From Prinia subflava (lineage: Eukaryota; Chordata; Aves; Passeriformes; Cisticolidae), in contig NC_086247.1 of assembly GCF_021018805.1 (NCBI RefSeq), positions 97,419,338 to 97,483,337 on the forward strand: a DNA stretch of 64,000 nt. Reading direction: 5' to 3'. Below the pieces are notes generated by a model, which ran no database searches, was not told where the DNA came from, and worked only from the letters and a program-made list of their open reading frames with translations. Numbering within the stretch: the first letter of the stretch is position 1; every line of letters starts with the position of its first letter. The position numbers and the translations under genes were made by a program. Below, piece after piece: positions 5,089 to 47,367 of this stretch.

Positions 5089-5189
5089 ATAATTACTTTG
5101 ACTCGAGCAATATTTGTTGCTTTCTATCCTCCATTTTTTGTTCATTTTCTTCATAAATCAATCTAGCTTCTTGGAAGGGGTCTTCTGTT

Positions 5190-10191: not shown

Positions 10192-10209
10192 AACCATCCT
10201 CTGCTACCA
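10192..10209 (-). promoter_or_regulatory. ERV-A primer-binding site (initiator tRNA-Met)
   Basis: The plus strand reads AACCATCCTCTGCTACCA, identical over 18 bases to the 3' end of vertebrate initiator tRNA-Met including CCA. It sits 3 bp inside the 5' LTR (spacer 10210-10212), exactly where the minus-strand primer binds. Confidence 0.88.
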
Positions 10210-10212
10210 TAT

Positions 10213-26088: not shown

Positions 26089-26242
26089 TGTCTTTGTTTG
26101 AAAGACAGGTGTCTGCTAGGGAGGGGCAAGGCCTCCCTTGGAATGGAGAATTCAAATCCCCTCCTTCCAAATTATTATAATTTAGAAAGTTAAAAGGGAT
26201 TTCAGGCAGAGTTATAGGGACAGGAATAACAGTTCTTTACTA
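26089..26242 (-). mobile_element. LTR-X, left part (split by ERV-C)
   Basis: It begins TGTCTTTGTTTGAAAGACAGG and shares CCCTTGGAATGGAGAATTCAAA and CCAAATTATTATAATTT with the LTR at 22813. It stops abruptly at GTAT, where ERV-C starts, and continues after ERV-C at 45915. Confidence 0.75.
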
Positions 26243-26246
26243 GTAT

Positions 26247-26917
26247 TGATTTATTAAAATATGAATACTGATCTAATATCAATATCCAACTGTGACGGAC
26301 AAAAACTCTCTAGCAGTTAAAGTTAGAAAGTGTATGTTTATTGCAGCGCAGGGTAGCGCATGGGATAGCTCCCTTATGTGCACTGCAAAGATCAAAGGTA
26401 ATTACAAAGCCTTCTATTTACAAAACTGTTGAATACACAAATTACAAATGCATATTCATACCCCTATCACTTCCTCTTCTCTGCTTCCTATGCTAATTGA
26501 CAAAAAGGCTATTAAGCTTGTGTAATTTGTTCCCTGAAATGGGTCAGTGGTCCTTTTGTGAGGAGTGGTCACCAAAAGGAGGAAGTAAAATGACTCTTCC
26601 TCGTTCTAAACTTTCAACCTTTTCAATCCAGATGTGATTGATGCATGGTAGAACTCCTTGCAGGAGTTTTTTCCAGGACTATTTCAATGTGTTTCTGGAA
26701 ACAGGAGGTTTGCAATTGTCTTGTGTTAGTTTCTCTGTTTTTAATAATTAAAAAGCAATGAGTTACTACATCCAGGGTAGCTTATCTTAAATCCGGTTTC
26801 TTTTAACCATCCTCTAACTTTTAACTGATTTCAGCAAAGCTTATCTATTAATTTCAGCTAAATCAGCAACATCTATTGTTAACTATAACCTTAGCTTTTC
26901 TAAAATCTTCAAAATTA
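26247..26917 (-). repeat. ERV-C 3' LTR
   Basis: About 671 bp. On the minus strand it starts TAATTTTGAAG (apparently TG mutated to TA) directly after a purine tract. It has AATAAACATACACTTTC at 26326-26343 as polyadenylation signal and R/U5, and ends TTTTAATAAATCA at 26247. Its last 96 bases also appear, inverted, at 45819-45914. Confidence 0.8.
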
Positions 26918-26944
26918 GTGTCTCTTTTCCCCACTTCTTCTTTG
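26918..26944 (-). promoter_or_regulatory. ERV-C polypurine tract
   Basis: The minus strand reads AAAGAAGAAGTGGGGAAAAG immediately before the 3' LTR. It marks the U3 start. Confidence 0.7.
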
Positions 26945-26964
26945 AAATTAGTAAATTCTTTTAC

Positions 26965-28723: not shown

Positions 28724-29003
28724 ATTAAAGAAGAAGTCTGTACCTTCTCACGCTCTTTTAATGTAAACATCAGCTATGTTCTATAAACATAGCCATTGTT
28801 TTTACATTCCCTGCCGGGACAAACAAGACTGTGTGACAGTCCCCTTCACCAATGTGATGTGGAGGTGGGAATTCCTTCCTCCAATCCACAGGCCTCATAG
28901 AAAAAGTATAAAAGTAAGTTTTTATAAATAAACCGGGTCTTCTGCCCGGCATGCTCTGATGCACCCAGATCTGTGTCCCCAGTCTGTTTTCTGGTTAAGC
29001 CTC
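28724..29003 (-). pseudogene. env: ERV-C env, SU middle part adjoining ERV-B
   Basis: A 64-codon open piece (28770-28964) with WRKEFPPPHHIGEGDC continues the surface subunit. It ends at the CCTC target site where ERV-B entered (29000-29003). It joins the env text that stops at 37693 on the other side of ERV-B. Confidence 0.6.
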
Positions 29004-29454
29004 TGTTAGCGTAGGAAAACATATAACCACACGAAGGCGATCATATGCGGTTCTTTATTCAAGCGCGCGGGACACAGGGGTGATGATACACCCAAATCTG
29101 ATGTCCAAAGAATACAGAGTCGATTCGTGATTTTTATAGTTTAAATTATACACATGTTAACTAACCCCCACCCCTAGATACTGATTATCCTATTCCTTAG
29201 TTACTATCTTAAATCATACCTACGCTTCTACCCTGATCCACACTTGATTTGGTTAAAACAATGCTTCTCAATTATCCCCTGAGTTGCAGTCACACTTGAT
29301 TCGGTCATTACAATAGCATGGAGCTGTTTGCAGAAGCTGACGCTTGTTCCGAGCTGAGCTGCGTCATGTTCCAGTTGTACGTTCTCTACTTTCCTCCCCC
29401 CACACATATCTCAACTTAACCCAGAAATTATATTTTTTTAACCCTCCACCAACA
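29004..29454 (-). repeat. ERV-B 3' LTR
   Basis: A 451-bp LTR from TG to CA on both strands. On the minus strand it has a TATAAAAATC box (plus 29131-29138 region), TTGAATAAAGAACC polyadenylation signal (29054-29059), and ends CCTACGCTAACA. Confidence 0.97.
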
Positions 29455-29466
29455 TTCCCCCCTTTG
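29455..29466 (-). promoter_or_regulatory. ERV-B polypurine tract
   Basis: AAAGGGGGGAA on the minus strand abuts the U3 start TGTTGGTGG. Confidence 0.85.
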
Positions 29467-29535
29467 AAAGTATTTTCACTCTAATATACTAAGTGTAAAT
29501 GCTTTCACTTAATACAGTCCATTAGGCTTCAGAGT

Positions 29536-31488
29536 TCATACTGAATGTTCATCTTCAAATCCTCTGTTGTCATAGGCTTTGTCCGGGATGTTGTTGCGGA
29601 TTGAAGGTGCTGGGTTCCGTGCCAATGCCTTCATTATGGTCCTGTTCCAAGATGCCTTTTTCTGTATCTCTCTCTTCAGGATTCTGTAAACTAACCAAAT
29701 TACTAAAAATATAATCAGTAAAATTATCAGATTTTCAAGGATAGACTTTATCCATGAACTCACATTCCATCCTAATCCTTCAAAGATTTTACCCAACCAG
29801 CTAGTAGCTAAATCCTTTTGTTCCTTTTGTGCCTCATGCTCTATTTGTTTTAACTGACTGATGTCATGTTCTACATCTGCAGTTACATTTGGGATGTGGA
29901 TGCAGCAATGGTCGATTTGTCCCTTTAAATATCCACACACTCCGTGTTCTTTCAAAAGTAACATATCTAAAGCCAAACGATTTTGCAGGGTCATTTTGGT
30001 GGTGGCCTGTAATTGCACATTGAGTTCCCTAAATCCCTCTCGTGTGATTCTTGCTAATCTGTCTACCTGACCTGTGAGTCTATATAGCATTTCTCTATTT
30101 CGATAATTTGCAATGGGACCAAACAAGGATTCTAGGGCCCACCCAATCTTTACTCCACTAGAGGGTTCCTTCCAAGTGTCATCTGGGTTCTTGTCTTCTG
30201 AGACGTCACGTTTTGCTTTTATTTGCAAGGGTTCACTGCTCCTGTTAAATGGGGATTTCTTCCAAATTGGACATAAAGTGGGAAGGCCCAGGGTGATTTC
30301 TCTTACCTCCCCGTCCATAGGCAAGTGTGTTGTCCATGTGCCATCACTCACTGCCCATACAAATGGTCCTGGACTTCGAATTGTACTCCTGCTACATCCT
30401 ACTATAATCTTAGAATCTATTTTGCCTTGTTTGTGTTTAATTTTCCTGCAGGCACAACCAATTCGTAAGGCTATTGCCAATGGTGACCACTGTTTCATTT
30501 CCAGATTATCTGAGGTGCAATCATAAATTTTCTTACATACCCACCAACTTACCTTATTTGCCTCTTTCTGACTACTAGTATCAGTATTCGTCACTGTGGG
30601 ATCTGTCTCATTTTCAGAGCCTTTCCATTTAATGCACCAGGGTGTGCTTTCCATATATTGGAATTTCTGGAGGATGCTCACAGACCATGCACTGTCCCAA
30701 GGTTCCAGTCCTTTCCAATCCTTCTCTTCACATTTCCACACCACAACACTTTCTGTAGCGTTGTCCCTGATCTTTTGATAGTGTAGAAACCAACATTGCC
30801 ATTTTGCAAGGTCTTGGTCCTTAACCCACCACTCTATGATTTGTCCCAATTTGCCATTACTAAGAATGCACTCTGACTTTCTCATGGGTTGCATATAGGA
30901 ATTCTCTGTTATCTTCCAGTATTCTCTGACCACCACCCTTGACTCTGGTACTTGTTTACAGTTAATTGTTTTGTTCCCTCCTATTTCAGGTAATTTTGAC
31001 GTTATTATTCCCCAGCTTACTGGGTCCCCTGCTGCCTTTGGTATTGGCAGACAGGCTGTTATTCTGCTGGTATTATGCATTTTGGCAAAGTCTCTGACCA
31101 ATCCAATCATTACATTCTCAGCCCGAATTTCATTAGAAATTTCTATTACTTGTGTTTTTGCCTGTATCTCTCTCTTCATTCTAGAATGAAGAGTTGTTAG
31201 TTGACCCTTCTGTATCCCATATCCCAAAGTAACAGCAATCCCTACTGGTGACATTAGTATCCATGAAATTAACATTACCCACAGGAAGAGCATGAGCACA
31301 GTTACCAATACCATTTGAACAGTTACAGACGTTTCAGCCTCAGCTTTGTTGGTCCAAAAGTTTCTACAGCCCATGACTGGACCCCACGAGGGACCTTCTT
31401 CACACGCGTGTAGTGTATCCAGGGTTCCACTCCAGCCACTTTGACTGCTGTAAAGATGGTTAGCAGTACCTGATGGGGACCAGTCCAC
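29536..31488 (-). CDS. env: ERV-B envelope glycoprotein (open)
   Basis: This is an uninterrupted 650-codon frame for the membrane-fusion glycoprotein. The frame opens inside the integrase end. The likely starts are Met39 (31374) or Met59 (31314), just before a hydrophobic signal-like segment (about residues 60-90). The surface subunit is cysteine- and N-glycosylation-site-rich. Furin-type KAKR is at 424-427. The transmembrane subunit begins with a polar stretch, then a hydrophobic loop ([13 protein letters not shown], 448-460) that may be an internal fusion peptide. A coiled coil and the immunosuppressive-type [15 protein letters not shown] (502-516) follow, then cysteines at 518, 528 and 529. 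The anchor is at about 583-604, followed by a 46-residue tail. It overlaps pol in another frame, as in other retroviruses. It would be made from a spliced RNA. Confidence 0.92.
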
Positions 31489-32195
31489 TTCTCTTTTAGT
31501 GGTTCTTCGTTCCAGGTTTTGATGTATACCTCATCTCCTGGTTCGATATTGTGGACTGGATTCTCCAGGGCCAGTGGTCTGTTCCACACGAGAACACTTC
31601 GAAGCCGAGCTAGAGTTTTCCCAAGGGACAGAACATAATTATACACATCTTGTTTCCCTGTGACATGAACATTTGGATTGGGATTAGGAGATTCATATGG
31701 TTTCCCATATAATATTTCATAAGGACTAACTGACATCCCACTCCTAGGCTTTATTCGAACCCTCAGCAATGCGATCGGCAAAGCCTGTGGCCACTGCAGT
31801 TTGGCTTCCTGGCATATTTTACTGATCTGCCTCTTCAGTGTCTGGTTCATTCTTTCTACTTGCCCACTTGACTGGGGTCTCCATGGTGTGTGGAGGTCCC
31901 AAGATATTCCCAATAACTTGCTTACCCCTTGTACCACCGTGGCTATGAAGTGTGGGCCTCTGTCTGATGATATCCCTAGGGGCACCCCAAACCTGGGAAT
32001 GATCTCCTGTAATAACCACTTAACTGTTTCCTTTGCTTGGTTTGTGCGACAGGGAAGGGCTTCTGGCCATCCAGAAAACGTGTCAACCCCTACTAACAGG
32101 TATTTGTATCCCCGAGTTTTTGGCAGTTCTGCAAAATCCACTTGCCAATAGTCTCCTGGTTCTATTCCTATCCGAATTCTGCCTAACTGTGCCTG
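31323..32195 (-). pseudogene. pol: ERV-B pol: integrase
   Basis: Integrase inserts viral DNA into the host genome. The open part from 32141 has the DD35E catalytic triad: Asp2 (MDFAELP), Asp60 (SSDRGPHF) and Glu96 (QVERMNQT). It then has a C-terminal domain ending in the [11 protein letters not shown] segment typical of class I elements. It is in the same frame as the RT-RNase H frame upstream and separated from it only by the TGA at 32196-32198. The HHCC zinc domain lies before that stop (HNECHWG, CEIC). The single stop probably arose by point mutation, possibly CGA to TGA. The domain itself looks fully conserved. Confidence 0.9.
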
Positions 32196-34988
32196 TCATC
32201 TAGCTACGGGATTGTTTTTCAGACAGATTTCACATTTAGACATTACTGACTTGGCCATTGTTTGCATCCGTACTGAGATTAGGTATTGTCTTAACCACTT
32301 TATCAACGCCTCTGCACCCCAGTGACACTCATTATGTTTTACCTGTAAAATTTCTCTCATTACCAAAGGAGGTACCACTATTTGCCCTTGTGCGGTTACA
32401 TACCACCCTTCTGCGTTCTTCAGTGCCTTCAGCAGTTGTGCTAGTCTGTCATCTTCGATTGTATAGTTTGGCTTCGGAGGCAAATTAAATTGAGAGATAT
32501 TAAGTCTTGATGGTATCAACGCCATTGTTTTCTGCACCTCTCGCGCTACCTGACGGGCTGCCCAATCTGCTTTTCGATTTCCTTCACAAATTTTGGAGTT
32601 GCCTGATTGATGTGCCTTGCAGTGCATGATTGCTACTTGTTCAGGTTTTTGTACTGCATCTATCAATTGTAGGACTGCATCTTGATGTTTAATATTTGTC
32701 CCTTGGGAGGACAGCAGTCCTCTTTCTTTCCATAAAGCTCCGTGTACATGCACTACTCCGAAGGCATATTTGGGGTCAGTCCAGATATTCACTGTCTTCC
32801 CTTCACTCAGCTCGAGTGCTCTGGTTAATGCGATTAGTTCTGCCCTTTGTGCAGACGTGTTAGGTGGTAGTGATTTTGCCTTTATTACTACATCAATTGT
32901 AGTTACCGCATATCCCGCGTATCTGGCTCCGTTCTCCATGAAGCTGCTTCCATCTGTAAAGAGTTCCCACTCTGGTTGCTCCAGGGGGACATCCTTCAGA
33001 TCTGTTCTTGCTGAATAAGTGTGCTCGATGACTTCTAGACAGTCATGCTCTAATGGACCTTCCTCAGCTGTGGCACCTAGAAATAGAGCTGGATTCAAGA
33101 GGTTAGTTGTTTTTAGTGCAACGTCATCCTGCTCAGTCAGGGTTACCTGAAACTTCATCATCCGGCTTGGAGAGAGCCAATGGCCCCCCTTTTGTTCCAG
33201 GACTGTAGTTACCATGTGTGGCACATAGACATCTATGTGTCTTCCCATTGTGAGCTTCCTGGCTTCCTGTATCAGCAGCACGGTAGCTGCCACTGCCCGC
33301 AGACATGAAGGCCATCCGGCACTTACGTTGTCGAGTTGTTTGGAAAAGTAACCCACCGGCCTTTTCCAGCTTCCCAGTCGTTGGGTCAGGACTCCCAGTG
33401 CCAGTCGCTGCCTTTCATGCACGTACAGCTGAAAGTCTTTAGACAGATCAGGTAACCCCAAAGCAGGAGCAGTTGTCAGTGCTTCCTTTAACTTCTGGAA
33501 GGCCTCTTTCTGTGGTTTGCCCCAGGTGAACGGCTGCGTCTTCTGAGCCTCGTACAAGGGTTTTGCAATCAGTCCATAGTCCATGATCCACAGGCGACAC
33601 CACCCTGTCATTCCGAGGAAGATCCGCAGCTCATGTAGATTCTGGGGCTCTGGAATAGCACAGATAGCTTGAATACGATTAGTACCCAGTTTTCTCTGCC
33701 CTTGTGAGATTTCACATCCCAGGTAAATCACAGTCTGTTGGGCAATTTGTGCTTTTTCTCTGGATACCTTATACCCTCCCATTCCTAATGAATTTAAGAT
33801 CTCAATGGTTACCTTTATGCAGGTCATTTCTTCCTCTGTTGCAATCAAAATGTCATCTACATACTGGAGTAATAAATATTGGTCTCTTGGTACTTGCCCT
33901 TCTCTGGTCCAGATTTCCAGTTCTTTTGCCAGTTGACTTCCAAAGAGAGTGGGGGACCCCTTGTACCCCATCGGTAATCGAGTCCAGGTGAGCTGAGTTT
34001 TCCTTCCACTTTCTGGATGTTCCCACTCAAAGGCAAATAGTTTCCTACTTTCTTGGTCAAGGGGTATACAGAAGAAAGCATCTTTTAAGTCAATTACAGT
34101 AAACCATTTATATATCTCTTTTACGGATGCTAACAATGTATAGGGATTGGCAACCACTGGATGAATGTCTTTTGTTATTTCATTTATACCTCTTAAATCC
34201 TGTACAAGTCTATACTCACCATTGGGTTTCTTCACTGGGAAAATTGGGGTGTTGTATTCCGATTTACATTCCTCTAGAATTCGATATTTTAAAAATTTAT
34301 CAATGGTCTTTGCTATTCCCTGTCGTGCTTCTGGTTTTATAGAGTATTGTTTGATTCGTACAGCCTTTGCTCTTTCTTTTAACTCTACATGTACCGGTTG
34401 TGCCAATTTAGATTTTCCAGGTACATCTGTTTCCCAGACAGAGGGAATTACTGCATCTTCTACTTCTTTAGGAATATTAGAAATTGGTTTTTCTTTTATC
34501 ATTAAAATCTTTCCTGTCTTAGACTCCAGAATTTTCATTACGAGTTCACCATTCTCAAAAGTAATTACTGCCTCCAGTGCTGCCAGTAGATCGCGCCCTA
34601 AGAGCGGAGTTTGGCAGTCTGGCATGTATAAGAATTCACGGGTCAAGATCTTATCTTCAAAGCTCAATTCTAGGGGTTGCAAGAATGGCCGTACCTCCTC
34701 CTTCCCTGTGGCTCCAATGACTGCTGCTGACTTGTTCCCGATTTTCCCCTCAAGATAATTTAGTACAGAATGTGTGGCCCCCGTGTCAATGAGAAAATCT
34801 ACGTCTTTTCCTTCTAAATGCAAAGTCACCATGGGCTCCCTTGATCCTGGCTCTCTCTCATGTAAAACCATGACCCTGGCTACACCATCCAGCTGATGCT
34901 CACTACTTTGATTAAACATACTGTCTAACTGAGGCTGACCATTCTGGCTAAACCGGTTTGGACACTCCCTTTTCCAGTGTCCCTCCAT
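32196..34988 (-). CDS. pol: ERV-B pol: NC knuckle, protease, RT, RNase H
   Basis: A 930-codon open frame with the polyprotein enzymes in order. A nucleocapsid tail starts it (the CCHC knuckle CAYCRMEGHWKREC begins just upstream of its first Met). Retropepsin has DTGA at residues 68-71. Reverse transcriptase has YVDD at 376-379 (33852-33863). RNase H (FTDGSS, then NIWTDPKYAF) follows, then the integrase zinc domain, ending at the TGA at 32196-32198. The first Met is not the natural start, since translation would come through from Gag. No stop separates the knuckle from protease, which is unusual, because gamma-type elements place the Gag stop there. All catalytic motifs I can check are intact. 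Confidence 0.93.
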   Translation of the reverse strand: MEGHWKRECPNRFSQNGQPQLDSMFNQSSEHQLDGVARVMVLHEREPGSREPMVTLHLEGKDVDFLIDTGATHSVLNYLEGKIGNKSAAVIGATGKEEVRPFLQPLELSFEDKILTREFLYMPDCQTPLLGRDLLAALEAVITFENGELVMKILESKTGKILMIKEKPISNIPKEVEDAVIPSVWETDVPGKSKLAQPVHVELKERAKAVRIKQYSIKPEARQGIAKTIDKFLKYRILEECKSEYNTPIFPVKKPNGEYRLVQDLRGINEITKDIHPVVANPYTLLASVKEIYKWFTVIDLKDAFFCIPLDQESRKLFAFEWEHPESGRKTQLTWTRLPMGYKGSPTLFGSQLAKELEIWTREGQVPRDQYLLLQYVDDILIATEEEMTCIKVTIEILNSLGMGGYKVSREKAQIAQQTVIYLGCEISQGQRKLGTNRIQAICAIPEPQNLHELRIFLGMTGWCRLWIMDYGLIAKPLYEAQKTQPFTWGKPQKEAFQKLKEALTTAPALGLPDLSKDFQLYVHERQRLALGVLTQRLGSWKRPVGYFSKQLDNVSAGWPSCLRAVAATVLLIQEARKLTMGRHIDVYVPHMVTTVLEQKGGHWLSPSRMMKFQVTLTEQDDVALKTTNLLNPALFLGATAEEGPLEHDCLEVIEHTYSARTDLKDVPLEQPEWELFTDGSSFMENGARYAGYAVTTIDVVIKAKSLPPNTSAQRAELIALTRALELSEGKTVNIWTDPKYAFGVVHVHGALWKERGLLSSQGTNIKHQDAVLQLIDAVQKPEQVAIMHCKAHQSGNSKICEGNRKADWAARQVAREVQKTMALIPSRLNISQFNLPPKPNYTIEDDRLAQLLKALKNAEGWYVTAQGQIVVPPLVMREILQVKHNECHWGAEALIKWLRQYLISVRMQTMAKSVMSKCEICLKNNPVAR

Positions 34989-35203
34989 CCGACAATATGC
35001 ACACTGATTCAGACCTAATCTACCATGACCAGAACCTCTGCCAAAGCCACCTCTATTAACGCCATGACCACCTCTACCACGTCCCCGCCCCGTCTCTGTA
35101 AAACTGCCAAAAGGCTTTGCCCCTGTTTCTTGACAATTTCTCTGTCCCTGTTATTATAAACTTTCCAGGCAACCTCTAGGAGTTTATCCAAGTTTCTTAA
35201 CTC
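34989..35203 (-). pseudogene. gag: ERV-B gag: capsid end and nucleocapsid, out of frame
   Basis: Between the Gag frame and the Pol frame the minus strand continues the capsid end in the Gag frame after a TAA at 35204-35206 (the RNLDKLLEVAWKVYNNRD segment). It then switches to the Pol frame, giving an Arg/Gly-rich stretch (GRGRGRGG, GFGRGSGHG) and the CCHC knuckle at about 34965-35005. So one nonsense codon and one frame change interrupt Gag. The glycine/arginine-rich run fits an RNA-binding nucleocapsid. Confidence 0.75.
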
Positions 35204-37039
35204 TTAACCTTCCAGTTTCTGTAGCTTTTTCCTAATATCTTCCTGTGCCTGACCCAGAAAAATAAAGGCAAGCTGAGTTCTTCCTTGCTCACTGTCTACT
35301 TGAAGATCAGTATATCTTCTAGCTGCTTCCTTAAGTCTTTCTAGAAAGGCAGTGGGAGATTCTTTCTTTTCCTGTCGAATTTCATACAACTTAGACCAGT
35401 TCATACTCTTAGGTATTGCCTGTTGAACACCAACATAAATCCACTCCTGATATCTCTTTAGCCTTAACATATCCACTCCAGAGGGGTCATTAGCATCCCA
35501 CTCTGGGTCTGCAGTGGGAAAATTATAATCCAGTGTCCCTGTCACCAAACCATTTCGTATGTCTTCTCTAGCTCTTTCTCTTGCTGCTCGAAGAACCATA
35601 TCTCTCTCTGTCTCATCCATCAGAGTGTCTAATATGACATGAATATCTTCCCAATCAGGGTTCTGAGTTTTCATTATCATCTTAACCACACGAGCTACCT
35701 TATCTGGGTTTTCTCTATACGTTCCGGCTGATTGTTTCCATATAACTAAATCAGCAGGTGAAAAGGGTACCTTTACAAAGACGGGTCCATTAGTTCCCAC
35801 CCCTTGCCTTAGTGGTGCAATAATCGTTCTCTTTTGTTTGCCTGATTTTAATATACCCTTTCCTGCCTGAGGCCACTCCAGGGCCAGTTTTCCTCGTGTT
35901 CGGTGAGCTACTGGGGCGTCTAGTTCATCTGCTTCACTGTCACTACTTTCCATTCTATCTGTCTTCTTCACATTCCCCCTTTGCTTCCGCCTCACAATCA
36001 CATCCTGGACAGGTGAATGTGGCAGGGGGGGGTACAGGGGGGCAGACGGGACAGAAGCTGGTGAAGGAGGTGTAGGTGGGAGCGGAGGGTACCCTTGGGC
36101 TGGTGTTAGAGGGGGGATAAATCTTTCAGCGGGTGTGGGCGGGGGAGCAGGATAGCTTTGAGCAGGTGTATGTGGAGAAGGGGGGGTTCTCTGAGCAGGC
36201 GGAGGAGGGACAGGCACCTGGGCAGGCAGAGGAGGGGCAAGCACCCGAGCAGGCGGAGGAGCGGCTGGCACAGGCAGAGGAGGGGCAAGCATCCGAGCAG
36301 GCGGAGGAGCGGCTGACACAGGCAGAGGAGGATAATTACCTTCAGCAGACAAAGGTGGGGGTGAAACATATTGTGCTGGCGCGAGCGAGGGGGGTGTAAG
36401 AGAATCAGGTGGGGTCAGGGTGAGCGGGGTAGAACTTGGTGTTGAGGGAGCCGTGGTGGTTCCGGGAGCCATGGGAGATACCAATAATTCCGATTCCAGT
36501 TCATCTCTTTTTTCCCCTAAAATTTCACTTAAAACTGCATGTTCCATACAATGCTTATTTTGGATGCAAGCCAGACACTTATTATTCTCAAGCTTCATTG
36601 CTTTCATTTTGTCAAGCCACAAAACCGGTTTCTCAAGCAAGCACAGAAATAAGTCAATATATGGTAATTGTTCTACCCTTCCATCTTGTGTACAAAGCGA
36701 TCTAAGTTGCATAATAACCTTCCCATCAAAAGACCCGTTTTTCGGCCACCTCTGATTTTCAGACAAAGCGTATTTTGGCCAGTGAACATTACAATATTCA
36801 ATCAACTTATCTTTTCGTAATTCCTGACCGACGTTCCCCTCTTTCCAATGTGCCAACAAACAACCCAACGGAGAAGAACTTGGTATAAAGGCATTATTGC
36901 TGCCCAAAACCTCTTTTAACCCTTTTAGTTTCTCCATATTACAGATACATAAAAACCACAGATGCCGAACCTGCAACGCTTTCGCAATGTCTGACGGACG
37001 GCTGCCTAGGCAATACCACCAGGAATTCCTTTTGCCCAA
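35204..37039 (-). CDS. gag: ERV-B gag: matrix, proline-rich spacer, capsid
   Basis: A 611-codon frame for the core structural polyprotein. The frame opens with MGKRNS (Gly2 could be myristoylated). A second candidate start is Met35 (36937), directly before the matrix text (SPLGCLLAHWKE, VHWPKYAL, RWPKNGSF). Residues about 195-350 form a proline/alanine-rich spacer containing two 16-residue repeats, PSAP and LYPPL, which look like late-budding motifs. Capsid follows, with the major homology region at QEKKESPTAFLERLKEA and the end IRKKLQKLEG. A TAA then ends the frame about 30 codons short of the expected capsid end. Otherwise the length and layout are normal. Confidence 0.88.
   Translation of the reverse strand: MGKRNSWWYCLGSRPSDIAKALQVRHLWFLCICNMEKLKGLKEVLGSNNAFIPSSSPLGCLLAHWKEGNVGQELRKDKLIEYCNVHWPKYALSENQRWPKNGSFDGKVIMQLRSLCTQDGRVEQLPYIDLFLCLLEKPVLWLDKMKAMKLENNKCLACIQNKHCMEHAVLSEILGEKRDELESELLVSPMAPGTTTAPSTPSSTPLTLTPPDSLTPPSLAPAQYVSPPPLSAEGNYPPLPVSAAPPPARMLAPPLPVPAAPPPARVLAPPLPAQVPVPPPPAQRTPPSPHTPAQSYPAPPPTPAERFIPPLTPAQGYPPLPPTPPSPASVPSAPLYPPLPHSPVQDVIVRRKQRGNVKKTDRMESSDSEADELDAPVAHRTRGKLALEWPQAGKGILKSGKQKRTIIAPLRQGVGTNGPVFVKVPFSPADLVIWKQSAGTYRENPDKVARVVKMIMKTQNPDWEDIHVILDTLMDETERDMVLRAARERAREDIRNGLVTGTLDYNFPTADPEWDANDPSGVDMLRLKRYQEWIYVGVQQAIPKSMNWSKLYEIRQEKKESPTAFLERLKEAARRYTDLQVDSEQGRTQLAFIFLGQAQEDIRKKLQKLEG
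36190..36340. repeat. 48-bp tandem repeats in ERV-B gag spacer
   Basis: GGGGCAAGCA(C/T)CCGAGCAGG followed by CGGAGGAGCGGCTG(G/A)CACAGG and CAGAGGA occurs twice at 48-bp spacing (about 36235 and 36283), with partial copies on both sides. It keeps the reading frame and adds 16 residues per unit to the proline-rich spacer. Confidence 0.8.
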
Positions 37040-37220
37040 CCACGCGTAGCTTTTGCTGCGTCTTAATGGCAGGCCCCCAGACCAGAGAATAAAGAACCTT
37101 ACCTCTCACCAGGGGTCGTTGTGAGCGGCGAGGGTCGCGGCTCCGATGGGCTCCCCGAGAAATCACCCGGTGCCGGCTGGAGCGTGATCGGGTCGCGGGG
37201 TCCTGGCTGCGCCCACAAGG

Positions 37221-37238
37221 TCCCGTCCTGGGTCGCCA
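37221..37238 (-). promoter_or_regulatory. ERV-B primer-binding site
   Basis: The minus strand reads TGGCGACCCAGGACGGGA, 4 bp inside the 5' LTR. The TGG start and position are those of a primer-binding site. The tRNA is not certain; Arg- or Ser-type 3' ends are the nearest that I recall. Confidence 0.75.
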
Positions 37239-37242
37239 AAAA

Positions 37243-37692
37243 TGTTAGCGTAGGAAAACATATAACCACACGAAGGCGATCATATGCGGTTCTTTATTCA
37301 AGCGCGCGGGACACAGGGGTGATGATACACCCAAATCTGATGTCCAAAGAATACAGAGTCGATTCGTGATTTTTATAGTTTAAATTATACACATGTTAAC
37401 TAACCCCCACCCCTAGATACTGATTATCCTATTCCTTAGTTACTATCTTAAATCATACCTACGCTTCTACCCTGATCCACACTTGATTTGGTTAAAACAA
37501 TGCTTCTCAATTATCCCCTGAGTTGCAGTCACACTTGATTCGGTCATTACAATAGCATGGAGCTGTTTGCCGAAGCTGACGCTTGTTCCGAGCTAGCTGC
37601 GTCATGTTCCAGTTGTACGTTCTCTACTTTCCTCCCCCCACACATATCTCAACTTAACCCAGAAATTATATTTTTTTAACCCTCCACCAACA
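37243..37692 (-). repeat. ERV-B 5' LTR
   Basis: A 450-bp copy almost identical to 29004-29454. It is followed by CCTC, the target duplication. Confidence 0.97.
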
Positions 37693-37696
37693 CCTC

Positions 37697-38087
37697 CACA
37701 GTGATACCCTCCTACTGCACACCCCTCTATTTTGAGTCTAAACTGAGGACATTTACTCAAGCATTTGTCACAGCGTTCAGGACTAATCTGGATGGGTCTC
37801 ATGGGTGGGTGGTAAGCCTCGTGGAACCTATCCTGTACGAATGTATACTTACATCTCCAAACATTTCTTTCTTACCACAAGCTTGCATTGGTGACTTCTA
37901 GCATCTTGTTTAAAGCCTTATGAGAGTAAGGGTCATAAACTCTTCCTTGGCACCGATATATCTTAGTCACATTATACCTACATGGTATTGTGTTGACTCT
38001 TGTTATGGCTAAGGTAATTACTACAAGAGTCATAACTTTCCACATAGTGTCCATAATAACTCTTAATCCATTTATTTGTGGTTCCAA
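37697..38087 (-). pseudogene. env: ERV-C env, signal peptide and start of SU
   Basis: The frame from 38087 holds a hydrophobic signal-like segment (MWKVMTLVVITLAITRV), then CRYNVTKIYRC. A stop follows at 37872. The same env continues in other frames to the cysteine-rich CDKCLSKCPQF segment before the CCTC site. It overlaps the integrase end, as retroviral env genes do. ERV-B then interrupts it, and the rest is at 26965-29003. Confidence 0.72.
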
Positions 38088-38943
38088 GTGAGCTTTAACT
38101 TCAGTTTATCACCTGGTGTGACCTTCCAAATTCCCTCTGGGGTTCTCTTCACTTGGGAGTGATGGATCCAGGCTTTCTGTTCTTTGATCTTGATTGCAGG
38201 GAAGGTAGTGAGGAGCACCTGGACCGGTCCTTCCCACTGCGATTCCAAAGTCTTTTCTGCAGAAGACTTAATGAACACATAATCCCCAGGTTGTATATAA
38301 CGTACTGGCCCATCTAGTTCCCTGTTTTGAGCTCCAGCCACATATCTCTCAATTTCTCTAAGTTGTTTATTTAGGGCCATCATAGATCTATGTAGGGTTG
38401 CTTCTCCTACTTGAATGGGTGTTTTTCTCTCTTGAACTGCGTATGGCCTTCCATCAAAAGAGCCTAGTTTCTCTTTTGCCCTTGGTTTTGTCTAAATTTG
38501 CAAAAATGCCTGTGGGAGAGCCTGGGGCCAGGGCAAATTTGCTTCTTGCCCCAGTCTCACAATTTTTTTTCAAATGGTTCGTTTTTTCCACTTGGCCACT
38601 AGATTGAAGGTGGTATGGGCTACAATTTTTGAAATAAAGTGTGGCCCCCTGTCTGAGGATATGGTTGCTGGAACTCCAAATTGTGGTATTATTTCTTACA
38701 ACAGTGCTTTGGTCACTTCTCAGGCCTTAGCGGTCCTGCAGGAAAGGCTTCTGGCCATCCTGAAAAGGTATCAGTTAACACCAATAGGTAACGATACCCT
38801 CCTTTTCTGGGCAGTTCTGTAAAATCAATTTGCCATTGTTGCCCAGGTCCACAACCTTTCCCAATTTGTCCCACTTTAGGCTTTGGGGTATTTTTAGGGT
38901 TAGTTTGGAGGCAAAGGCTACACTGATGAGTTACTTGTATCAC
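38072..38943 (-). pseudogene. pol: ERV-C pol: integrase
   Basis: Integrase in broken frames. The zinc-domain Cys pair (CSLCLQ) and first Asp (QIDFTELP) lie in 38713-38943. The second Asp (DRGPHF) is near 38640-38670, the Glu (SGQVEKTN) near 38575-38600. The C-terminal domain (WIHHSQVKRTP) is in 38072-38383. The catalytic triad can be followed across frames, but stops and frameshifts rule out a product. Confidence 0.82.
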
Positions 38944-38999
38944 TGCAGTTTCCTGGCCATAATTCTTTCTTTCAAATTGTTATACAGGGCATGTATTCC

Positions 39000-39949
39000 C
39001 TAGTGTGTTTTCTCATGTTCCTTCTGTACTAATGACCACAACAAGTAAGAGGGTACTACAAGTTTCCTTTCTTCTGTTACAGCCCATCCCTGCTGGTTAT
39101 AACTTGCCTTTTCTACCTTAATAAGTTTCTTATCCTTTTTATTGTATATTGGCTTACCCTCAATAGAAATTTTTCCATCTGGAATCAATGCTGCCTCAAT
39201 TGTCTCATTAGGTATCTCACCTTTTGCTGCTTCTTTTGCCTCCCTATCTGCCAGCATATTCTGTTCCTGCAATTCAGAGCTCACTTTTTGGTGCGCTTTA
39301 ATGTGCATGATGGCTACCTTTTCAGGTAATTGTACTGCATCAATAGACTCAGTATTTCTCAGTGTTTAATATTCTTCCCTTGTGAGTTCAACAGTCCTCT
39401 CTCCTTCCAAATGGCTCCATGTGTATGAACTACTCCAAATGCATACCTTGAGTCCATATAGATGTTAATTCCTTTTCCTTTTGCCAGCTCTAGGGCTTGA
39501 ATTAAGGCAATTATCTCAGCCTTCTGCACAGAGGTATTTGTTGGTAATGGTCCAGACTCTATTACCTCTCTGCTTGTGGTAACTGCATACCCAGCATGCC
39601 TCTTTCCACTGATGACATAGCTGCTCCCATCAGTAAACCAGGTCTCAGCATTCTCAAGCAGGGTATCCTTCAGATCCAGGCGACTGGAGTAGGTGGCTTC
39701 GATGGTCTCCAGGCAATCATGGATCACTGGTTCTCCCATCCTTCTGCTGAGGAAGGAAGCTGGGTTCACAATGTTAGTTACCACAATCTCAACATCATCT
39801 TGTTCTACCAGTATAGCTTGGTACTTCAGGAGTCTCTGTGGGGAGAGCCAATGCCCCCCTTTCACTTCCAGAACTGTAGACACTGTGTGGGACACTAGCA
39901 CAGTCGTCTTCTGGCCCAGGGTGAACTTGTGTGCCTCTTGGATGTTCAC
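39000..39949 (-). pseudogene. pol: ERV-C pol: RNase H region
   Basis: Two frames (39359-39949 and 39000-39308) cover the connection and RNase H domains: AETWFTDGSSYV and NIYMDSRYAFGVVHTHGA carry active-site aspartates, and AHQKVSS the histidine region. They are separated by a frameshift near 39359. This aligns in order with the same part of ERV-B at about 32600-33300. Confidence 0.82.
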
Positions 39950-39982
39950 TGCTATTGCTGCAACGGCTCTGAGACACCCTGG

Positions 39983-40727
39983 CTACCCCTTAGCTGCCAT
40001 ATCCAGCTGTTTGGAGAGGCGGGCAACTACCTTTTGGTATGGGCCCAGATTTTGTGCTAGTATTCCTAAAGCGATCCCTTGTTTCTTGTGAGAAAATAAA
40101 AAGAACAGTTTACCCACGTGTGGAAGTCCCAAGGCTGGTGCTGACATGAGGGCCTTCTTTAGCTGGTCAAAGGCTCGAGTTTCTTCTTTTGTCCATTGAA
40201 GATCTCTGCTCCCTTCCGTGATCAAGGCATACAGAGGTTTAACAAGCAATCCATAATTATAAATCCACAGTCTGCACCACCCTGTCATGCCTAGAAAGGT
40301 CCTCAGTTCTTTCACTGTCTGAGGCTTTGGGGTCTGGCATATTGCCTCCTTGCAATCTTGTCCCAAGGTTCTTTGTCCAACATTTCTTTCATAGCCCAGG
40401 TAAATAACTGTCTGCTTTACCATCTGAGGTTTCTTTTGGGATACTTGATACACTTGCAGTCCCAGAAAGTTTAGAAGGCTTACTGTCCAGTCCACGCATG
40501 TTTCCTGAGTCTGGGTGGCTTTTAAGAGGTCATCCACATACTGGAGGAGCTGTCCTTTTCCTGGAGGAGGTTCCCAGGACTCCAAATTCTTTGTAAGCTG
40601 CTCCCCAAATATAGTGGGCGAGTCCTTATACCCCTGCAGTAATACGCACCATGTGAGCTGAGTTTTATGTCCAGATCTAGGGCTTTCTCACTCAAATGCT
40701 AAAATTTTCTGGCTGGCTTCATGGAGA
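39983..40727 (-). pseudogene. pol: ERV-C pol: reverse transcriptase, C-terminal part
   Basis: RT palm and thumb, with LLQYVDDLL near 40530-40550 and the FLGMTGWCRLWI segment. The open frame is 39983-40585. Upstream the frame breaks and is readable to about 40727 (the ASQKILAFE segment), with stops. The N-terminal RT part is at 41826-42050 beyond the inserted segment. Confidence 0.82.
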
Positions 40728-41825
40728 TGTATGCCAAGGCCATCTCTACAAGTTAATAAATCTTAAAGGTCCAAGAACATTTTAAAAATTTTATGCAAAG
40801 TTGTTTATTAAAAGCACATATCTGAAGGTGAACGAGTCCTAAATGAGCGGTCTTACAATCGGTTGTGAGCATAAAGCCTTAAGAAATAAAATACCAGAAT
40901 AAACAACAGTTTTGACACAGAATTTAACACAGCCTCAGGGTAAAACAACCTCCAGCTCCTGACCCCAAGCAGGGTTCCTGGCCGCAGGGTCACAATGACA
41001 GGAAGAGGGTCCTGAGATCACAAATCCCAGAGTTCCCGGCCGCGGGGTCACAGTGGCAGGAAGGGGTCCTGGGGTCCCGAACTCTCACAGAGTCCCCAGC
41101 AGCCCTGAACAGAGTTCCAGGGCAAGTGTCGCAGGGGGAAAGGGACCCCGGGGCCCTCGTCCCAAGCGACAAAGACTACAATAGATGGTACCTTTAGAAT
41201 CCTGTTTCGGCTCCCTGGCAGGGCTCCTTCCCGAGGCTGTGGAAGGTGGAGGTTGGATCGATAGATCGGATTGATCGATCGATACCTCCACTTCCAACCC
41301 AGAGGCTTTTTATCCATGTGTTACAAATGCATATTCATACTTCTATCTACACACTACCCAATCTAAGTTCAGTTCTCAAAGTTTGTGAAACTACGAAAAA
41401 CTACGAAAAGCAGTATACTACAGTATATTGCAGTATACGAAAAACTACGAAAACCTACACATATAACATATCTATTAATGCAAAAACTCTATTTTGCTAA
41501 CTTAAAAATTCTGTCTTGTTATGCATAAAAACTCTGTCTTAGTGTATGTGAAAACCTTTATCTTATCTGCATAAAATATATACCAAAAATTATAAACGTT
41601 CTCTATTTTTATTATGTCTAAACTATATCATTAAGCCTGAAGCTCTGAACTTCTACACTAGCAATTAGGCACTTAGGGTGCGTTTTCTTAAAGCTGAAGC
41701 TTAAATCTCTATTTTATACATGTGTGGCTTTATATATTCTAATTTTTCTAAAGGTTTTAATTCAATTCCTGTACTTTTCTCTCTCTGTGGAGAATCCATG
41801 GAAACATGACTTCCAACAGAGTTAG
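40728..41825 (-). mobile_element. Insertion in ERV-C RT, probably an LTR
   Basis: About 1.1 kb interrupts RT between the VKDAFF motif and the LHEASQK segment. It has a GC-rich half (about 40940-41230) with two copies of a unit of about 66 bp (CCCGGCCGCGGGGTCACAGTGGCAGGAAG type) and an AT-rich half. AATAAA occurs on the minus strand near 40806. Possible ends are TGTATGCC at 40728 and CAACA at 41818, but no clean target duplication is visible, so the borders are approximate. Confidence 0.55.
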
Positions 41826-42050
41826 TCAAAAGAAAGCATCTTTCACATCTAAAGTGGTAAACCAGCTTAACTCAGGTATTAAACGGGTTAACAGGGTGTA
41901 AGGATTGGCAACTACCAGGTACAAGTCCTCAGTTACCTTGTTAACAGCCCTTAAATCTTGTACCAACTTGTATGACCCATCAGGCTTTTTTACTGACAAA
42001 ATAGGAGTGTTGAAATCAGACTGACACTCCCTGAGTAGTCCTATCTTCAA
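41826..42050 (-). pseudogene. pol: ERV-C pol: reverse transcriptase, N-terminal part
   Basis: RT fingers and the first palm motif: PILSVKKPDGSYKLVQDLRAVN, then the first catalytic Asp in TLDVKDAFF, where the insertion cuts it. This matches the equivalent part of ERV-B near 34080-34290. Confidence 0.85.
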
Positions 42051-42648
42051 AAAGTTTTCAATAATTGGACTGATTCCTTCTCTATTTTTTTTTCTTTAGG
42101 GGGTATTGTTTAACCCTTACAGCTGTCTTCCTTCTTTAAGTTTATTCTATACTGGTAGTGCATTCTTTGCCTTTCCTGGTATATCAGAAGCCCACACTCC
42201 AAGAAATACCTGATCAATTATTCTCCTGAAATTTTCCTCTTCATTTGCAACTTTGATTTCTTTGGTTATCATCATTAAAGTTAACAGTTCTACATATTGT
42301 TGATCTTTTACCTCCAAAATAATTTCCCCATTCTTAAATATTATTTTTGCCTCCAACTGCTCTAGCAGATCTCTGCCCAAAATTCAGATGGAGCTTTAGG
42401 CATGTATAAAAATAGGTGAATTCCCCACTACTTACCCAATTTATACTTCAATGGTTTGCAAAAATAAGCTCTTTCAGATTGGCCAGTCACCCCTTTTACC
42501 ATAACATAGTCATTGGCTACAGGTATTAGGGCTTTATTCAACACTGAAAATGTTGTCCCTATGTCTATCAAAAATTCCACCTCTTTCTCTTTGTTCCCCA
42601 GTTTGACATAACCAGAAGGTCCTCTAGGTTAGGGCCCTCTGGTCCCCC
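42051..42648 (-). pseudogene. pol: ERV-C pol: protease
   Basis: Retropepsin region. The active-site loop near 42550-42580 reads LIDIGTT, where D-T-G is expected, so the catalytic triplet is altered to D-I-G. The flap and C-terminal part (GRDLLEQLEAKIIF) are in the frame 42147-42380. Several frame breaks occur. Confidence 0.7.
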
Positions 42649-43212
42649 TCAGTCCTCTTTTACATGAGCAACCACTCTTTCCTCTTTCTGACCAGATTTT
42701 CTATGTTCATCACCCCTTCTTAATTCTGGGCACTGGTTTTTCCAGTGACCAAGTTTTTTGCAAAATGCACACTGATCTTTTCCCAGTTGGGGCAGTTCCT
42801 GTTTTGGTGGACTTTGCCCAAGTTTTCATTTTTCTCCCTCTTTTACTACTGCTACTAATTGCTTCATCCCTTGTTTATATCCTTCTTCCTGGTTACTAAA
42901 AACTCTCCAGGCCTCATCCTGTAAAGCTTCTAAATTCCAGCTGTTTGGACCCTGGATCTTCTGGAGTTTCTGCCTGATGTCTCCTGGAGACAGTCCTAAA
43001 AATAAATTTATAAATTGCTGCGTCCCTTCATCAGATCCAGGATCCAGGGTGGCGTGTCGGCGCATTGCGTCTCGCAGGTGATCTAGAAATTCAGAAGGTG
43101 TTTGAGAGGGGCCCTGTTTGATAGCATGTAAGGCTGACCAGTTTATGGTTTTGGGGATTGCTCTTTCCAGCCTTTTTACTATCAATTCCTGGTATCTTTT
43201 TAACCGTCCCAA
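42649..43212 (-). pseudogene. gag: ERV-C gag: capsid C-terminus and nucleocapsid
   Basis: The frame 42826-43212 holds the capsid C-terminal domain, with the homology region around QTPSEFLDHLRDAMRRH and the IRQKLQKIQG end. After a break, a single CCHC knuckle (CAFCKKLGHWKNQC) lies at about 42730-42775. The knuckle frame ends with TGA at 42649-42651 in an Asp-stop-Gly-Gly setting. That is the position and context of the gammaretroviral Gag stop that is read through to make Gag-Pol. Confidence 0.82.
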
Positions 43213-43951
43213 CTCCTCATCATTATTAGGATCTCAACCCGGGTCTCAAAGGGGAAGTTTGGGAGTTGGTGGGGGAGGTTCAGGTTCATCCTACTCACTG
43301 TCACTGCTAGGCAGTGGTGGATCCCTGGGTTCAGAAGTGGGTGGAGAAACCCCTACCTCAGCTGCTGTCCTTCCAAAGGAAGATGCAGCTAGAGGTGAAG
43401 CGGGGGAGGTTGGAGTTAATGATGGTTCTGAATCTGCATCCCCCACCACCCTCCTCCTTTCCTGCCTTTTAGGGGGTCGTTTAACTATGTCTTCTGTCTC
43501 TTGTTCCAAAGCCTCTGCTTGGTATACCTTGTCAAGATATATGCACCTCTGATTTATCGAGCAGGTACTACAACACCGTTTGGGCTTTCCTTTAGTAACT
43601 TTATTGTCCTTTTCAAGGGCCAATACTAAACGATCAGATCGTGACCTCATTCCACAATCCCTTTGACACTCAGGGTGATCCCTAAGAGTAAAGAAAACCA
43701 TATCAGCATAAGCTACTTCCTACCACTTTTTTTCACAGCGTAGGAAGAGCAAAAGTTTCATAGTGAAGTGTACCATTTGCCGGCCATCTCACCCTCTCTT
43801 CCAGCCTATACAGTGGCCACCACTGTGTACAAAACTTACCAAGCTTCCTTTTGGTTCCTGTACCCCCATAGCCCACCAATTCTTTCCAATGTGTTAAAAT
43901 ACATCCCAGAACACTGCTTTTAGGAATCTCTTGACTTTCACTTGCTCTCAT
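43213..43951 (-). pseudogene. gag: ERV-C gag: matrix and spacer
   Basis: Matrix text (SVLGCILTHWKEL, CTQWWPLY, VRWPANGT) is in 43733-43951, starting at Met 43951 without a Gly2. A second frame (43291-43701) has the end of matrix with a cysteine pair (CCSTCSINQRC) and an acidic, proline/serine-rich spacer (SPPTSEPRDPPLPSSDSE). Domain order matches ERV-B gag. Confidence 0.78.
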
Positions 43952-45703
43952 TTTTAAGATTCCTCTGATACAAAGACATACTGGGTACTCTCCACCCTAA
44001 AGATTTTCACTGGCTTCCCGATATCTCCTGCTCCTGGGCATATACTTTTACTGAAGAAAGAAGCAGGGTTTACACGCACTCACACACCATGAGAGGGGAA
44101 AAATTCCTTTTTATTTTAATCTAAAAGGAAACAACAATCAAACAAATTGACAACACACACACTCATCCCCTCTTCCTTGCTTAAATTGCTGATTAAAAAT
44201 TGCTATCAAACCAAGTCCTCTGTTGTACCCTGCACTGGCTATATTGCAGCTAAAAATGCGCTCAAAAATTGCAAGCAGTTTTACACATACTGCAGCAAGC
44301 ATACAGTTAAAACCCAACTCAATTCCTGTCAAGCCATAATCAGAGTACAGATGGGGTACTTGCAAAATACCAGCTGGGCTTTGGCCAGATATTAACAATC
44401 TCAAACATACACACTCAACCAAAAATTTTAACAAAGTCTTGCTATAAGCCAAAGGAGTTAAGTGGGGACACAGCACAAATCCCTCCACAAGAGGGAAGCG
44501 GCGGGGGGACAGGCCAACCCCAGCCCCACACCATCCCGCACTCCTCTGCAGCCAGGAATCACCAGTTCCTTGTCAAAATACTACTCCACACACACCGGCA
44601 ATCTCAAAATCTCACAAACAATCAAGTATGTTCCTCCACAGTCAAGACAAGTCCCCATAATCAAAACCTTTTGGGGTTGAGCAGGGCTGGTAAAACATAG
44701 TGTGAGACTACAAAACCTGAATCCTTCTGCTGATTACCAGGGTGATACCAGGAGTAATTTCAAACCTTTCACACCACTCGTTCTTTTACACACAAAATAA
44801 ACAGCTTATTCACTCACAACTGTCTTCTCCACTTAACAACACACTGGTTAAAATATCACTGCCAGCCACACAAACAAAACTCACACACAGTACTTTCCTG
44901 TGGCACACACTCCAGGCACTGTATAGGCATTTCAAATCCTTCTGCTTTCCAAAACACAAATATCCCTCTGCTGATCAGGTGAGGGTTTTTAAATTCTTTT
45001 ACAACTTTAAACATACACCACTCCTCCAAAACACGTAGAGCATACTACCAGCACACCCCAAAAACACACAAATCAAAATGCAAATCCTCACAAAGCACAA
45101 CATGTACGGCACACCAGTAATTTTCACAGCATAAGCATGCAAACTTACTAAACAAAGATCTGTTTACACTACAAGCACATCTGGCATGTGCACAGGCTGC
45201 AACTGCGGTCTCCTGCAACCCACAGCGGGACCCCTCTCGTCCCAAAACTCACAGCGGGCACTCAAACTGCAGCCCACCAAGCTGCTTCTCAGCCACAAAC
45301 CAAGCCAAACTGGAGCCACGACTGCTCCCAGAATACAGCAAAACTGGGGATCCTGCTGCCGCTGCTGCCCGACCTCGCGACACAGAGTACAAGCTCCTGG
45401 TGCTGTTACTGGCACCACCTGAAACACAAACAAGCACAAAATATCAGACTCCGCAGAGCTTACAAAACCCATTCAGGCCTCTGGTTAGCGTAAGACATCT
45501 CTTATGACTTATAAGCTGCCTGTATTCAAAGGTACCCATTTCCAATATTTATTAAACATACCTTTTTGTCTATAGTTTTGGCAGGTCCTGGTCTTTCCCC
45601 CAGTGTGTCAGCGGGGCCACGGGAGCGCTTTTCCCAGAAAATTCTGGGTGGGCACCCAGAGGTGGTCCCAGACCCTGATGGCCCCTCGGCCAGAGAGAGA
45701 AAA
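43952..45703 (-). other. ERV-C 5' leader, possibly with another insertion
   Basis: 1.75 kb lies between PBS and matrix; the same interval in ERV-B is under 0.3 kb. The stretch about 44053-45474 is rich in CACACA on the plus strand, contains AAAATAAAAAGG on the minus strand and could be an inserted LTR (TGAA/TTCA-like ends). I see no matching target duplication. No gene is evident, and the open frames near 45164-45493 are not recognisable. Confidence 0.45.
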
Positions 45704-45721
45704 GTCCCATCTGAGTTGCCA
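45704..45721 (-). promoter_or_regulatory. ERV-C primer-binding site
   Basis: The minus strand reads TGGCAACTCAGATGGGAC, 2 bp after the U5 end (AATAAATCA at 45724). It resembles the ERV-B site with a few changes. The tRNA is not firmly assigned; an Arg-type end is possible. Confidence 0.7.
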
Positions 45722-45723
45722 GA

Positions 45724-45914
45724 TGATTTATTAAAATATGAATATTGATCTAATATCGATATCAACTGTGACAGACAGTGTGAATTACGGAGATATCCCG
45801 CGTGCTGCCCGGCGTCACAATAAACATACACTTTCTAACTTTAACTGTTAGAGAGTTTCTGTCCGTCACAGCTGGATATTGATATTAGATCGATATTCGT
45901 ATTTTAATAAATCA
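45724..45914 (-). repeat. ERV-C aberrant 5' end: inverted R-U5 plus U5
   Basis: In minus orientation the provirus starts with the reverse complement of R-U5 (45914 to about 45777). It continues with the last 54 or so bases of U5 in normal orientation (45777-45724), then the PBS. There is no U3. The two U5 arms form a palindrome of about 54 bp around a loop of about 83 bp. The outer arm plus loop matches the 3' LTR end at 26247-26343 in opposite orientation. Both provirus ends are therefore U5 ends. Confidence 0.8.
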
Positions 45915-46678
45915 GTATATATAACAAGGCAAACAAACAACAACAACTACAGCATTAATAATAAACAGAACCAGGAACCTCGAGGGGCTTTGTTTCACAA
46001 AGCCTAGGGCAGTCTGATTTCAGTGCCCCTGTGGGACTCTGAGAGACCAAGCTGGAACGGTGGAAAATCCTGGGCTGGTGGATGAGATGTATCAGGAACT
46101 CTGTCAGTGGTAGCTGGAATGGCAGGGATGTCCCAGCAGGGCAGTACAGAGGTACAGAGTAGCAGAAAGCCTCAAAGCAGCGCTGAAGGAGCGGTGGCAG
46201 CAGCAGGACAGGGCCAGCCCAGCAGGGCAGGAGGAGGCGAGCTCAGAATTCTGGGGCACACGAACAGATGATGGTAGATTCCCAGGACTGGACTTGGTGG
46301 TGACAGTGAACTCCTCCTGCAGCCAGCAGCAGCCTGGGCGTCCTCTCTCCGATACTGAGAGCAAGAGCCAGAAGCTGCCCCAGCTCTGTCCTTTTTCTGC
46401 CCCCAAAACTCGAATTATCTCCCCCCTCCAAGAGAAACTCCCAAAGACCCAAAGAAGTGTAGCCAGGTGCTACAACTTCTCTCCTCTTGCCCCTTTGTTC
46501 CACTTAAGTACCTATAAGTATCCAGTAGTTAGTTTCCTAGCAACTTACAGGAAAAAATTCTATAAGTAAAAAAGAAACAAATCTAACCCCCCAAAATATG
46601 AAAAATTGACCGTGCCAATTTAACAGAAGCCCTCCTTACTCCTGAAAACTAACATTTTCCAGCTAGTCTGTTACAACA
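45915..46678 (-). mobile_element. LTR-X, right part
   Basis: After the GTAT duplication, LTR-X resumes (ATATAACAAGGCAAACAAACAAC) and runs to ACAACA at about 46678. On the minus strand this end starts TGTTGTAACAG. The outer duplication is not visible. The open frames at 46104-46569 belong to this GC-richer LTR body. Confidence 0.65.
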
Positions 46679-47367
46679 CCCAGAAAATTAATGACAGAGT
46701 GAATGACACTATGTTTAGAATAACACTGTAAAACAAGGGCACTTAGTTCTCAAAGAGGATATATCCAAAAAGAACACTGAGTTACACTCAAAAGTGCATG
46801 AGCTGCTGGAAAGAGCTGCAAAGCTCCAGCCTTTTGTAACTGAACACTCATTTATCTCAGAAACTGTCTACCATTGACGTAGGAAAGTAACCTTTCTTTC
46901 TCTCCCATTGCTGAATTCACCAAGAAAACCTCTGAAATGCTTTGCCATTTCTTGGGACAGGAGTCAAAGGTCAGCAAAATTTATTTACTCAAAAATGTGA
47001 GCAAAAGACATTTTATCTCCAGGAAACTACACTAGCAAGCTGTGAGATAGTGCCAGATGAGAGCATTAAAAATTTCTTATGATGGGATTAATTAATGATT
47101 CCTCATGCATTCCCACTGCATGATAGAATATAGGAGAGTTCAGCTACAAGGCAAGTTTATCAGAGAGGCTTAGAGATTTCAGAGCTTATCAATGCTCTTC
47201 CAGCTTCATAGAGAAAAGGAAATTATCAGGACAGTCATATCACAGGTGCACTCTCTGTCCTCCCAGCAGTAAGATGTCTCAGACACATTGCAGCGTGTAG
47301 ATCTGGTGTTTTTCTGCAGTCACAGCACACAAGCACCAGGATTGATTGATGATGTAAAAATATCATG
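46679..47367. other. Non-coding DNA
   Basis: Nothing recognised between two LTRs. Confidence 0.5.

Follow-up and report, generated by a model that had tools for sequence, protein, structure and literature searches.

An endogenous provirus of Prinia subflava bounded by two U5 ends and probably born with a strong-stop-derived 5' end

ERV-C, an old retrovirus copy in Prinia subflava (NC_086247.1), begins in its own orientation with an inverted R-U5, followed by a partial U5 and a PBS-like site, and carries the same U5 terminus outermost at both of its ends. On balance, at a probability of roughly 55%, this provirus appears to have been born with a 5' end derived from strong-stop DNA, most likely through fold-back self-priming, with integrase joining two U5 ends to the host. 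The reading is drawn from one locus, contained in a stretch of 64,000 nt (the window) that was analysed as a whole.

Results

Anatomy and coding remnants of ERV-C

ERV-C lies on the minus strand and is interrupted by a second, younger provirus, ERV-B. The parts recognized are as follows.

26247 to 45914, minus strand: ERV-C provirus, with gammaretrovirus-like gag-pol, split by the younger ERV-B
42826 to 43719, minus strand: gag remnant of ERV-C, with Gag_p30 in 42829-43233
38072 to 40687, minus strand: pol remnants of ERV-C, with RVT_1 and RT_RNaseH_2, RNase_H and MLVIN_C
29004 to 37692, minus strand: ERV-B, the younger provirus nested in the ERV-C env, not part of the scar
27207 to 28536, minus strand: env remnant of ERV-C, assigned by position and likeness to bird proteins
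26247 to 26917, minus strand: 3' LTR of ERV-C (U3-R-U5), its inner U3 limit near 26917 being an estimate of the initial annotation

In the Pfam search, Gag_p30 (E 2e-12) and MLVIN_C (E 2.9e-12) identify the gag-pol of ERV-C as gammaretrovirus-like (class I), while 43294-43719 matched no Pfam family and was placed in gag by its position. Two env stretches of ERV-C matched no Pfam family at E 0.001, TLV_coat included, and the label gammaretrovirus-like is therefore limited to gag-pol; the env of the nested ERV-B did match TLV_coat in the same kind of search. One ERV-C env stretch had 30 matching proteins at E 0.001 or better, the top matches coming from Hirundo rustica (85% identity, 82% covered) and the weaker relatives from other passerines and from non-passerine birds, a spread that points to a passerine host. 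Beside its gammaretrovirus-like gag-pol, this Pfam-negative env, one stretch of which has relatives in several birds, is possibly a swapped envelope lineage. At the inner U3 limit of the 3' LTR, near 26917, a clear TG start was not found, and Rfam and tRNA scans of the whole 64,000-nt window returned no matches.

Searches for relatives of ERV-C yielded little. The viral contigs gave a single locus with an ERV-C pol stretch, its best segment just 17 residues long and thus uninformative, and no match to one exact 22-base LTR pattern. Alignment of the ERV-C env revealed no relatives among 58 pattern matches in viral contigs or among 48 in genome contigs, and the phage records held none.

The window contains two further provirus-like elements. 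ERV-B is a young provirus with long open frames; its two LTRs, at 29004-29454 and 37243-37692, share 99.6% identity across 451 columns. The second element, ERV-A, is provirus-like and lies on the minus strand at 4417-10865. Direct repeats with 98.5% identity (4417-5069 and 10213-10865) bound it, and its open frames resemble gag, pol and env by eye.

The 5' end consists of an inverted R-U5, a partial U5 and a PBS-like site

Read in provirus orientation, the 5' end of ERV-C runs from GTAT through an inverted R-U5 (45914-45776), the remainder of U5 (45777-45724) and two bases to a PBS-like site (45721-45704).

45915 to 45918, no strand: GTAT target-site duplication, provirus 5' side
45776 to 45914, plus strand: inverted arm, R-U5 opposite to the provirus, its outer end being the U5 terminus (AATAAATCA on the plus strand)
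45724 to 45777, minus strand: final 54 bases of U5, oriented as the provirus and next to the PBS-like site
45704 to 45721, minus strand: PBS-like site TGGCAACTCAGATGGGAC, read from the sequence, two bases (45722-45723) inside the U5 terminus
26243 to 26246, no strand: GTAT target-site duplication, provirus 3' side

The inverted arm, 45776-45914, is an inverted copy of 26247-26385 in the 3' LTR, from which it differs at 20 of 139 columns (BLASTN within the window and pairwise alignment). The adjoining part, 45724-45777, repeats 26247-26301 in direct orientation (92.7% identity across 55 columns with one gap), and the two 5' arms match each other at 89.3% over 56 columns (both BLASTN within the window). 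At its inner end the inverted arm shares a CTG overlap with the direct U5 part. When 45400-47000 and 26200-27100 were compared with the window by BLASTN at E 1e-3, no U3 was detected at the 5' end. Where an ordinary provirus has two direct U3-R-U5 LTRs, ERV-C thus has an inverted R-U5 plus a partial U5 at its 5' side, and the sequence of direct U5 remainder and PBS-like site is the order expected of a self-primed strong-stop product. For the PBS-like site the nearest candidate tRNA would be Arg(CCT), with two mismatches.

These results bear out the initial annotation, which had described an inverted R-U5 followed by about 54 bases of U5 and a PBS with no U3, and had equated the inverted outer end with the U5 end of the 3' LTR. 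Aligning the 5' end with the 3' LTR, as it had proposed, recovered the inverted and the direct copy alike; its starting coordinate, 45704, marks the far end of the PBS-like site rather than that of the inversion. Folded as a single strand, the 191-nt 5' end forms a long hairpin, as any inverted repeat would (z -11.3; none of 200 shuffles folded as well).

Both ends are U5 termini inside a 4-bp duplication

The same U5 terminus lies outermost at both ends of ERV-C, inside a duplicated GTAT that had been noted before and is indeed present at 26243-26246 and 45915-45918. GTAT has a frequency of 0.0037 in the window, such that a chance match would occur about once in 270. A target-site duplication of 4 or 5 bp is that of a gammaretrovirus-like ERV, and PMC3790719 gives a duplication of 4 bp for MLV and one of 5 bp for Rev-A. 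The same paper describes concerted joining, in vitro, of two DNAs mimicking U5 ends by the MMTV and Rev-A integrases. The duplicated GTAT, the exact U5 termini and the PBS-like site in its place agree well with two suggestions of the initial annotation, namely that both ends integrated as U5 ends and that the provirus lacked a U3 promoter at its 5' side from birth.

The inverted arm stops about where R should begin

The inverted arm stops at the base equivalent to 26385 in the 3' LTR, a position flanked by two landmarks.

26414 to 26420, minus strand: TATA-like box TAAATAG, 35 nt upstream of 26385
26337 to 26342, minus strand: AATAAA, lying 43 nt downstream of 26385 within the predicted R

Counted by hand, 78 nt separate the TATA-like box and AATAAA in ERV-C, against 79 nt in ERV-B, where the box reads TATAAAA. 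Since the TATA-like box, the AATAAA and a spacing like that of ERV-B agree, the arm stop appears to lie near the expected start of R, with the qualification that TAAATAG is weak as a TATA box and 35 nt is slightly far. The proposed placement of the junction at R may hold approximately, with these landmarks as its basis and the start of R itself predicted. The CTG overlap at the fold, between the end of R' and U5, is 3 nt long; 4 of 124 placements have an overlap of 3 or more.

U5 is star-like while R is unusually divergent

The three U5 copies differ pairwise at 4, 4 and 6 of 55 columns, with three private changes in the direct copy (one of them a gap), three in the inverted copy and one in the 3' LTR. 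This star-like pattern is as expected if the three copies were once alike, a weak test given the few sites. R behaves differently: between the inverted arm and the 3' LTR, 14 of 43 columns upstream of AATAAA differ, compared with 6 of the other 96 (Fisher p 1e-4). An earlier estimate that the arms differ by 6-10% is accordingly sound for U5 (4 to 6 of 55 columns) and fails for R upstream of AATAAA. The homology of this part of R is real, as 29 of its 43 positions match, against a maximum of 21 in 1000 shuffles. The divergence has its change point at AATAAA (26343 / 45818 in the window), and 4 of 2000 permutations were as strong; in this comparison, which counts 14 of 42 differences upstream and 6 of 97 downstream, R looks like a patchwork, with a sharp change in divergence at that motif.

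The view that CpG decay alone produced the R divergence was set aside, as 7 of the 14 differences remain once those explicable by CpG are removed (7/43 upstream of AATAAA versus 4/96 elsewhere, p 0.035). A binomial test of these remaining differences gave p 1.5e-4, with only about 29 non-CpG sites, counted by hand, as its base. Since both ends of a provirus made from one RNA should carry the same R, the excess divergence speaks against a single identical RNA; two variant RNAs packaged together, or else two insertions, may have been involved. For HIV-1, first strand transfer between two RNAs is described in PMC5651808.

A probable strong-stop origin of the 5' end

The preferred reading, in which strong-stop DNA supplied the 5' end, would proceed in five steps. 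Minus-strand strong-stop DNA (tRNA-U5'-R') would reach the 5' end of the RNA, and its 3' end would then fold back onto its own U5', pairing about three bases (CTG with CAG), and be extended through the remaining U5 into the tRNA to yield U5'-R'-U5-PBS. This self-primed strand would transfer via the PBS to the finished minus strand, replacing plus-strand strong-stop DNA, and copying of the transferred strand would produce a linear DNA ending in U5 on both sides. Integrase would trim two bases and insert this DNA into the host by its two U5 ends, duplicating 4 bp and leaving a locus that would have lacked a 5' U3 promoter from birth. Strong-stop self-priming is known as an aberrant side reaction, and two-U5 integration is known from test-tube assays.

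Several observations argue for this origin: the inverted arm, the direct U5 and the PBS-like site stand exactly in the predicted order, GTAT lies outside both ends, the arm stops close to the expected R start, the fold has a 3-nt overlap, the U5 copies are star-like, and both HIV-1 self-priming and in vitro joining of two U5 ends are in the literature. Against its simple version stand the divergent R, predicted folds that do not favour the fold-back point, and the single locus. In the predicted fold of the arm version of the strong-stop strand, the 3' end prefers (p about 0.5) a pairing partner in U5 other than the one used. In the 3' LTR version, the last base has no partner above p 0.02, and the strand folds no better than shuffled versions of itself (z -0.09; 91 of 200 did as well). 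With another U5 site favoured, the predicted fold was set aside as support for the fold-back point. The self-primed origin put forward in the initial annotation thus retains its predicted order of parts; its simple version leaves the R divergence unexplained, and a jump of the minus strand gives the same scar.

Such a jump is the strongest competitor, one we judge fairly unlikely. Plus-strand transfer would be normal, and the minus strand, having copied 54 U5 bases, would jump onto the 3' terminus of a free strong-stop DNA derived from a second RNA and copy it to the U5 end. The junction, the 3-nt overlap and the two U5 termini that the jump predicts are those of the preferred reading, such that fold-back priming and a jump onto free strong-stop DNA would leave an identical scar. 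If the second RNA was a variant, the jump accounts for the divergent R, as does fold-back of such a strong-stop DNA equally. No sequence feature favours the jump over fold-back, and it would presumably require that the flap of the old U3-R strand be resolved.

Two separate insertions, which we regard as quite improbable, would explain the divergent R simply. An ordinary ERV-C on the minus strand and a solo LTR close by on the plus strand would have been fused by a later deletion that removed the U3-R of the 5' LTR, the intervening host DNA and the U3 of the solo LTR; inverted LTR pairs are prone to deletion, which counts for this account. It leaves the GTAT match (0.0037) and the end of the arm near the R start to chance, and the inverted U5 shows no extra divergence, its three private changes equalling those of the direct copy, a comparison of few sites and low power.

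The flanks also bear on two insertions. The left flank of ERV-C, 26089-26242, has a 74% paralogue at 22813-22966, and when the two flanks are joined the match runs on to 22985. The joined flanks thus match the related repeat further (22813-22985) than the left flank alone does (to 22966), which argues against two insertions, the extension being a weak one. The anchored extension score is 12.1 for the joined flanks versus 6.6 for the left flank running into ERV-C; the right flank alone scores 6.6, a value matched in 6 of 400 random windows and in 45 of 400 shuffles. As a sign of the empty site the joined-flank match is suggestive only, and the paralogue at 22813-22966 was set aside as proof of that site since extension across it is too weak. 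ERV-C lies beside or inside an older repeat whose second copy (74%) is 3 kb away, and the stretch 23060-23322 matches 17120-16887 in inverted orientation (71%).

An assembly or library artefact, in the form of a hairpin chimera of reads, is highly improbable: long inverted repeats can be misassembled, but the arms carry separate changes (6 of 55 columns), as in old copies, and the duplication fits both ends. Equally improbable is that the inverted arrangement is the normal LTR form of the family: the 3' LTR of ERV-C consists of one ordinary R-U5 preceded by U3-type sequence, and reverse transcription would give both ends the same LTR form.

Discussion

The first step proposed for ERV-C has a parallel in HIV-1, where self-priming of minus-strand strong-stop DNA is described (PMC4668388, citing Guo et al. 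1997) and where, likewise, the 3' end folds back and is extended. In that account the HIV-1 product differs from ERV-C: it is an aberrant cDNA linked to the TAR hairpin, which nucleocapsid protein suppresses, rather than an integrated provirus (PMC4668388). HERV-K124, according to PMC3625200, is like ERV-C an endogenous provirus with inverted partial LTRs; unlike in ERV-C, these are internal and 3', and the 5' LTR is standard. The authors of PMC3625200 speculate on LTR inversion plus template switching, and cite Hughes and Coffin 2002 for a possible mechanism of HERV-K LTR inversion. Besides HERV-K124 (PMC3625200), our literature search found, among the listed titles and abstract starts, no endogenous provirus with inverted LTR parts.

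Nor did the listed titles and abstract starts include a strong-stop-derived provirus, which, with older papers thinly covered, is no proof of absence. Olsen and Swanstrom in 1985 reportedly described a pathway to defective retrovirus DNA, with aberrant viral DNA arising during reverse transcription. The 2002 work of Hughes and Coffin (Genomics 80:453) concerns, by its title, a human HERV-related element that resembles a DNA transposon, and the element reportedly has transposon-like ends, with inverted terminal repeats built from LTR sequence; it may be the same kind of scar as ERV-C.

More broadly, and as a doubtful, tentative proposal, strong-stop self-priming could be a real and recurrent side road to integrated proviruses with inverted U5 repeats and no 5' U3 promoter, in which integrase in the germ line dispenses with the U3 end and a divergent R records two co-packaged RNAs. 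If this is true, proviruses of the ERV-C type are transposon-like elements bounded by inverted U5 repeats. A germ-line provirus that combined strong-stop self-priming with two-U5 integration would show that such a product can run to completion and enter the genome of an animal. The arrangement would offer a signature searchable in any genome, namely U5 termini at both ends, an inverted arm ending at R and a PBS that is kept, and such scars would give an independent mapping of R starts in extinct retroviruses.
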